From assembly GCA_944325685.1 (NCBI GenBank), contig CALVBC010000002.1:1-64000 (forward strand): DNA of 64,000 nucleotides, in the 5' to 3' direction. Position numbers and translations under genes: made by a program. This stretch comes from an uncultured Erysipelotrichaceae bacterium. Lineage in GTDB: Bacteria; Bacillota_I; Bacilli_A; Erysipelotrichales; Erysipelotrichaceae. This document shows positions 16,640-16,874 of the stretch, piece after piece. Within the stretch, counting starts at the first letter, position 1; every line of letters starts with the position of its first letter. The notes below the pieces were generated by a model. The model ran no database searches. It was not told the origin of the DNA and was given only the letters and a program-made list of their open reading frames with translations.

Positions 16640-16663
16640 AGTATTCCCCTCTCTTTAGATTAT

Positions 16664-16701
16664 AAAAAAGCACCTATGGCAGTAGATCCACCACAAGTGC
16701 T
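16664..16701 (-). terminator. Intrinsic terminator in the leader of the surface-protein gene
   Basis: On the minus strand AGCACTTGTGG (16701-16691) pairs over 11 bases (two G-U) with CCATAGGTGCT (16679-16669), followed by six T. It lies 24 bases before the surface-protein ATG. There is no complete minus-strand gene just upstream except the short repeat ORF, so it acts as a possible attenuator. The T-run merges with TATAAT (16659-16664), which lacks any -35. Confidence 0.75.
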
Positions 16702-16733
16702 CGCTTAAAAGTATTCTCTTTGGAATTTGTTAT

Positions 16734-16859
16734 CTAATGCATAGTTAGCTTGCTTGCTTGCTTGCTTGCTTGCTTGCTTGCTTGCTTGCTTGCTTGCTTG
16801 CTTGCTTGCTTGCTTAAGTGTGTCGCTTTCGCAACAATGTTGTCAAGTACCTCTTGCAT
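16734..16859 (-). CDS. Short repeat-bearing ORF, possible leader peptide (frame depends on repeat number)
   Basis: The ORF starts at ATG 16857-16859 and reads MQEVLDNIVAKATHL followed by five KQAS units encoded by the tetranucleotide repeat, ending in KLTMH at TAG 16734-16736 (41 codons). I do not recognise the peptide. With one more repeat unit the frame would instead continue as ANYALDNKFQREYF and stop at TAA 16705-16707, three bases before the terminator hairpin. With one fewer it would stop at once. A longer upstream frame (to 17117) exists but has no coding character. The ATG lies six bases after an extended -10 (TGCTATTAT), so it could be read from a leaderless mRNA. Whether it is translated is unknown. 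Confidence 0.4.
   Translation of the reverse strand: MQEVLDNIVAKATHLSKQASKQASKQASKQASKQASKLTMH
16748..16815. repeat. Tetranucleotide microsatellite, 17 copies of GCTT (AAGC on the minus strand)
   Basis: The tract is perfect over 68 bases. Because four is not a multiple of three, each gain or loss of a unit changes the reading frame of any ORF crossing it. Long perfect tetranucleotide tracts are known as slipped-strand switches in host-associated bacteria. It lies 109 bases upstream of the surface-protein start. Confidence 0.97.
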
Positions 16860-16865
16860 GATCAA

Positions 16866-16874
16866 ATAATAGCA
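16866..16874 (-). promoter_or_regulatory. Extended -10 promoter for the repeat ORF
   Basis: TGCTATTAT on the minus strand ends six bases before the ATG of the repeat ORF; TTATTA is found 17 bases further upstream. This is the same layout as at 12805-12813. It would drive the repeat ORF and, past the terminator, the surface protein. Confidence 0.45.

Follow-up and report, generated by a model that had tools for sequence, protein, structure and literature searches.

A predicted pil1-type phase-variable transcription attenuator ahead of a surface-protein gene in an Erysipelotrichaceae bacterium, with related leaders and a promoter-like element at their repeats

Organization of the leader locus

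The window, a stretch of 64,000 nucleotides from an uncultured Erysipelotrichaceae bacterium, carries on its minus strand an extended -10 element, a leader open reading frame (ORF), an intrinsic terminator placed between the leader and the following gene, a ribosome-binding site, and a gene for a predicted surface protein (Table 1). Between its ATG and its tail, the leader ORF contains 17 units of AAGC, a repeat whose length is not divisible by three. Stop codons in every frame, together with the terminator, divide this array from the surface gene. No Shine-Dalgarno sequence was seen before the leader start codon, and the position of the ATG suggests that translation would begin there.

Table 1. 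Coordinates of the leader locus and the adjoining surface-protein gene in the window
Feature	Position	Strand	Basis or detail
Leader promoter P1, extended -10 TGCTATTAT	16866-16874	minus	Read from the sequence
ATG of leader ORF, 6 nt past the -10, predicted leaderless	16857-16859	minus	Sequence and comparison
Embedded promoter-like element P2	16817-16846	minus	TTGACA 16846-16841, 18-nt spacer, CACACT 16822-16817
17 perfect AAGC units in leader ORF, KQAS codons	16748-16815	minus	TRF, 100% matches
TAA for 16 units, directly at array end, predicted OFF	16745-16747	minus	
TAG for 17 units (assembly), predicted OFF	16734-16736	minus	11 nt past array, 32 nt before hairpin
TAA for 18 (3n) units, predicted ON	16705-16707	minus	40 nt past array, 2 nt before stem
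Intrinsic terminator	16664-16702	minus	15-bp stem 16702-16668, U-run 16669-16664
Ribosome-binding site AGAGAGGGG of surface-protein gene	16646-16654	minus	Sequence
Gene predicted to be switched, 1248-aa predicted surface protein	12893-16639	minus	Signal peptide; C-terminal tail ends IVDTKAK; ATG at 16639

Counted from the ATG, the leader stops 0, 11, and 40 nt past the array with 16, 17, and 18 units, respectively, and the hairpin begins at 45 nt. The hairpin has an energy of -20.8 kcal/mol, and the terminator stretch folds at -22.3 kcal/mol, with a z-score of -5.1 against dinucleotide shuffles. Base-by-base inspection confirmed the order of -10, ATG, array, terminator, ribosome-binding site, and gene given in an earlier sequence-only reading, and recomputed frames reproduced its leader end of KLTMH and a stop with 17 units and its immediate stop with 16. 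With 18 units the leader reads ANYALDNKFQREYF up to the TAA, as that reading held, with the stop lying 2 nt before the stem instead of three. The terminator and its six T were likewise recovered, with a stem of 15 bp, counting G-U pairs, in place of 11.

An Rfam search of the window returned 6S RNA only (56868-57022, minus strand) and no known leader RNA. Elsewhere in the window, at 9249-11234, a single 661-aa ORF encodes a glycosyltransferase fused to RecX domains.

Leader loci in the genome and its relatives

Searches for AAGC, AGAC, and AGAGC arrays spanned the whole 1.36 Mb of the window's genome (G000), of which 1.17 Mb was read. Seven leader loci with three interchangeable units were identified: AAGC at C2 (the window), C30, C11/C12, and C23 (only 3 units), AGAGC at C13, and AGAC at C17 and C31. 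All seven tetra- and pentanucleotide arrays in the 1.17 Mb belong to such leaders, and the sole other short-unit array there is a 12-bp repeat. The same motif precedes the six arrays that have upstream sequence, the seventh being the cut contig end of one locus. AAGC arrays of at least 5 units occur in only 4 of 60 relatives sampled and, in a broader set, in 4 of 392 genomes, and further leader loci were found in the relatives G002, G005, G152, and G264.

As read from the sequences, anatomy, frames, and terminators are conserved across loci and repeat units. In the more than 20 related loci compared, start codon, repeat, terminator-reaching frame, terminator, and surface gene are kept together, and the repeat unit, the hairpin sequence, and the identity of the surface gene vary. 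Near-identical leaders bear 3, 17, 18, and 23 units, indicating that the repeat count evolves more quickly than the flanking sequence; contig breaks at arrays, considered as a sign of unit heterogeneity, resemble assembly overlaps. The orthologue of the window protein in G002 (41% identity) has its own AAGC leader. A 50% identical homologue in G038, which belongs to another family, has neither array nor leader, and the switch is thus not inherent to the surface-protein gene.

The majority of the putatively switched genes encode products with signal peptides, as judged by inspection. Downstream of the C13 leader come a TetR-family gene and then a surface-protein gene, with integrase and replication genes adjoining; the same TetR leader is present in G005 (L457). 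Position 3065-9905 of the C13 locus (L033) is a mobile element bearing this AGAGC leader, two of whose three frames would be ON. At G152_C39 (L106), the leader can be read in one frame across the terminator and on into the surface gene in phase, so that leader and protein would be fused. Surface proteins of the genus and its sister genus have (I/V)(V/N)(D/E)T(S/A/K)x(K/R/Q) at their very C-terminus, and no membrane helix follows this motif, which may serve as an unusual tail for anchoring or sorting; it was seen in the window protein and in homologues in L030-L032, L035, L053, L054, L056-L058, L105, L106, and L176.

Among IMG/VR contigs, L236 and L254 carry AGAGC leaders with a Shine-Dalgarno sequence, a terminator-like hairpin, and a downstream gene with a signal-peptide-like start, and they apparently represent the pil1 kind of leader, described below, in other gut lineages. 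L139 (IMG/VR) bears a 166-unit AAGC array following TTGACA and ATG. Matches in Alphaproteobacteria and Lentisphaeria displayed no leader anatomy and were taken as chance, and the AAGC arrays in hsdS of G040 and G554 were rejected as leaders, being coding-frame switches.

Terminators, reading frames, and leader starts

Almost all leaders whose downstream region is intact have a strong hairpin and T-run 31-71 nt past the array, and the hairpin sequences differ between loci. The degenerate locus G005_C95 has no terminator hairpin; at G264_a the automatic search found none, yet a hairpin is readable by eye. All 16 loci tested have a frame that gets to the hairpin, where shuffled tails would lead one to expect 10.3 such loci. 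At 8 of them the remaining two frames close within 15 nt, compared with an expectation of 1.8. Both figures overstate independence, since the loci are partly related through shared ancestry within the genus. Openness up to the hairpin, not the tail peptide, is what the leader tails conserve. A conserved tail peptide is doubtful as a functional element, since the frame in which AAAGARAATACTTTT is read changes from locus to locus.

Of 14 leaders from the genus and its sister genus, 13 have a -10 matching TGnTAnnnT, or close to it, 6-8 nt ahead of the start codon, with a shuffle probability of 0.6-2.5% per locus. Leader ORFs in the window's genus are therefore usually predicted to be leaderless, and G264 leaders have a Shine-Dalgarno sequence in place of a leaderless start. 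Leaderless genes look common in G000, where 44 of the 695 ORFs that reach 200 aa have an extended -10 located 6-8 nt ahead of the ATG. From unit number and frame, the assembled states are predicted to be OFF for the window, C30, C11, C23, and C31, and ON or nearly so for C17 and C13. Among the relatives, G264_a and G152_C39 are predicted to be ON and G264_b OFF.

A promoter-like element at the arrays

Each of the 17 window-family leaders examined has TTGACA 24-29 nt upstream of its array (25 nt in the window), followed by xAxxxT at a spacer of 17-18 nt; the pair constitutes the element P2, which in the window ends 1 nt 5' of the array. The rumen Bacillota leader L066 displays the same geometry. 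The full pattern has a frequency of 8.9e-5 per strand position in G000, which makes chance a remote explanation. P2 is independent of reading frame, and TTGACA as a TTG start codon was rejected because at several loci that frame is closed by a stop codon ahead of the array. A plain 9-of-12 consensus promoter scan did not detect P2, owing to its weak -10. This geometry has the array begin at the promoter's expected transcription start, and P2 is most simply read as a putative sigma-70 promoter whose start point falls at the array.

Among the 6-mers that precede arrays in viral contigs, TTGACA ranks first for AAGC and AGAGC and second for AGAC. It occurs within 60 nt of 70 of the 157 non-redundant viral AAGC/AGAGC/AGAC arrays, at 23-28 nt in all 70, although many of the phage arrays fall into two homologous families, leaving roughly 15-20 independent contexts. 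Of these 70, 63 have xAxxxT at spacer 16-18, versus 10 at control spacers 10-12. On the far side of the 157 arrays TTGACA is present in 5, and in CAAT arrays it is present in 2 of 33, at no fixed distance. The geometry becomes more frequent as arrays lengthen, from 0 of 157 two-unit repeats to 12 of 56 arrays of 5-7.9 units and 58 of 100 arrays of at least 8 units. The 3-4.9-unit bin is biased, some of its loci having been fetched with CTTGACA, and some pattern searches are biased likewise, so the enrichment claims lean mainly on searches without that motif.

P2 geometry was identified at the IMG/VR loci L111, L118, L124, L129, L226, L236, and L265-L338 and at leaders of G000, G002, G005, G152, and G264. 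It also occurs inside unrelated coding genes, encompassing a PAPS reductase-like family, cytosine methyltransferases, HsdS, and a reverse transcriptase, the viral host-gene names being given by reading of the sequences rather than by family search. A promoter located within a coding gene, aimed into a repeat, and unneeded for the gene's expression suggests a role in repeat instability, and P2 may thus raise repeat mutability. It is possible, and we propose it tentatively, that in Firmicutes and their phages the long arrays of AAGC, AGAGC, or AGAC harbor sigma-70 promoters firing at the first units and forming a hypermutability device, in which promoter activity sets the rate at which phase-variable genes switch; initiation or abortive transcription would open the array and raise slippage. 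An induced promoter, rpoSp, inside the nlpD coding sequence raises the local mutation rate (Farr et al. 2025, PMC11838912). Like P2, it lies within a coding sequence, whereas it concerns point mutation in Pseudomonas and the arrays here concern repeat slippage (PMC11838912). This was the only precedent found in the literature for the suggested role of P2, and the search found no report of the promoter-array geometry. If the embedded promoter does set the switching rate, it would answer what makes some repeats hypermutable.

Proposed mechanism and alternative explanations

The window locus is very probably a phase-variable transcription attenuator of the kind described for the pil1 locus of Streptococcus gallolyticus (PMC3894217). 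RNA polymerase would start at P1 and a ribosome at the 5'-terminal AUG, and the number of AAGC units would set the frame in which the ribosome exits the array. With 3n units (15, 18, or 21), the ribosome would reach a stop at the terminator and cover or prevent the hairpin, so that the surface gene is read (ON). In the other two frames it would stop 0-11 nt past the array, leaving the hairpin free to form and transcription to end (OFF). Slipped-strand gain or loss of units would flip ON and OFF at random. We infer that unit number varies in living cells, that the leader is translated, and that polymerase reads through the terminator. The sequence-only reading had proposed that unit number decides terminator formation and surface-protein production, and the more than 20 related loci and the pil1 precedent support it. 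The ON stop of the window locus lies before the stem, not inside it, which was counted against the mechanism; pil1 with a stop 4 bp before the stem is still ON (PMC3894217). The genome's seven leaders would switch their operons independently of one another, and it appears that seven or more operons, mostly surface-protein genes, are switched by repeat number.

The conservation of P2, with a perfect -35 at all of the window-family leaders examined, also permits an unlikely alternative in which P2, not P1, is the working promoter and the units act through 5' UTR length, RNA stability, or promoter strength. This leaves unexplained the terminator-reaching frame, the early stops in the other frames, and the conserved upstream start codons. 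Moreover, P2 occurs within phage coding genes, where it is unable to be the gene's promoter, and the pil1 transcription start has been mapped upstream of the leader gene (PMC3894217). Under the attenuator mechanism, P2 transcripts starting in the array could miss the leader start codon and escape the frame rule.

A TATAAT adjoining the surface gene at 16664-16659 could point to a promoter past the terminator, which, like constitutive read-through, would supply the surface protein with the repeat neutral. This explanation is very unlikely: neither sequence reading nor the promoter scan found a -35 ahead of this TATAAT, in agreement with the sequence-only reading, and the set of repeat, frames, and terminator is found again, with other units, at unrelated genes, which is unexpected of a neutral repeat. 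Least likely of all, arrays and flanks could be recombination targets that shuffle surface genes, with leader anatomy a by-product of duplicated flanks; several G002 contigs do end in a near-identical flank and array, making homologous exchange between leaders possible, but heads, tails, hairpins, and units differ at most loci while order and frame logic are kept.

Comparison with known systems

In S. gallolyticus, pil1 combines GCAGA repeats in a leader peptide with a premature terminator (Danne et al. 2014, PMC3894217). With 22 units pil1 is OFF, the stop lying 39-49 bp before the terminator, and with 21 or 23 units it is ON, the stop lying 4 bp before or within the hairpin (PMC3894217). Deletion of the terminator locked it ON, mutation of the start codon, with RBS and ATG mutated together, locked it low, and chloramphenicol abolished the effect (PMC3894217). 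The pil1/pil3 loci resemble the window locus in having repeats in a leader ORF, a premature intrinsic terminator, and switched surface structures (PMC3894217). The early OFF stop at 39-49 bp in pil1 corresponds to 32 nt in the window, and an ON-frame stop at, in, or past the hairpin is common to pil1 and the leaders here (PMC3894217). Rotating the pil1 unit GCAGA gives AGAGC, the unit at loci of G000 and G005. Unlike pil1, the leaders here also use AAGC and AGAC units, and seven loci occur in one genome of another family. The pil1 leader has a recognisable RBS, whereas the window leader is predicted to be leaderless, without a Shine-Dalgarno sequence, and G264 leaders have one; RBS presence is treated here as a trait that varies within the pil1 kind and does not define it. 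Usually one frame of three is ON here, compared with two in pil1 and in the TetR-operon leaders.

The sequence-only reading knew of no precedent for joining a repeat switch to leader-peptide attenuation; this combination has been shown for pil1 (PMC3894217), and the window locus is a divergent pil1-type variant. The novelty is in breadth and variation: other units, another family, many loci, and a leaderless start. The promoter-array geometry also appears new; its TTGACA, the paralogues, and the published precedent all go beyond the sequence-only reading. These loci would extend a single Streptococcus case toward a broad mechanism of surface variation in gut Firmicutes, with ON and OFF predictable from sequence alone through units modulo 3 and with seven such putative switches in one genome.

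In the pyrBI and trp leaders of E. coli, terminator formation depends on where a ribosome stands on a leader peptide. The window leader resembles these in that leader-peptide ribosome position would govern the terminator, and it differs in its input, which is DNA repeat number with no effector instead of the sensing of nucleotides or tryptophan; trp attenuation is also discussed by Danne et al. 2014 (PMC3894217). Coding-frame repeat switches of Haemophilus and Moraxella genes, and of phase-variable hsdS and methyltransferase genes, likewise employ tetranucleotide arrays that shift frame by slipped-strand events. In those systems the array lies in the switched gene, whereas the array of the window locus occupies a leader ORF of its own, outside the reading frame of the switched gene, and would act on transcription.
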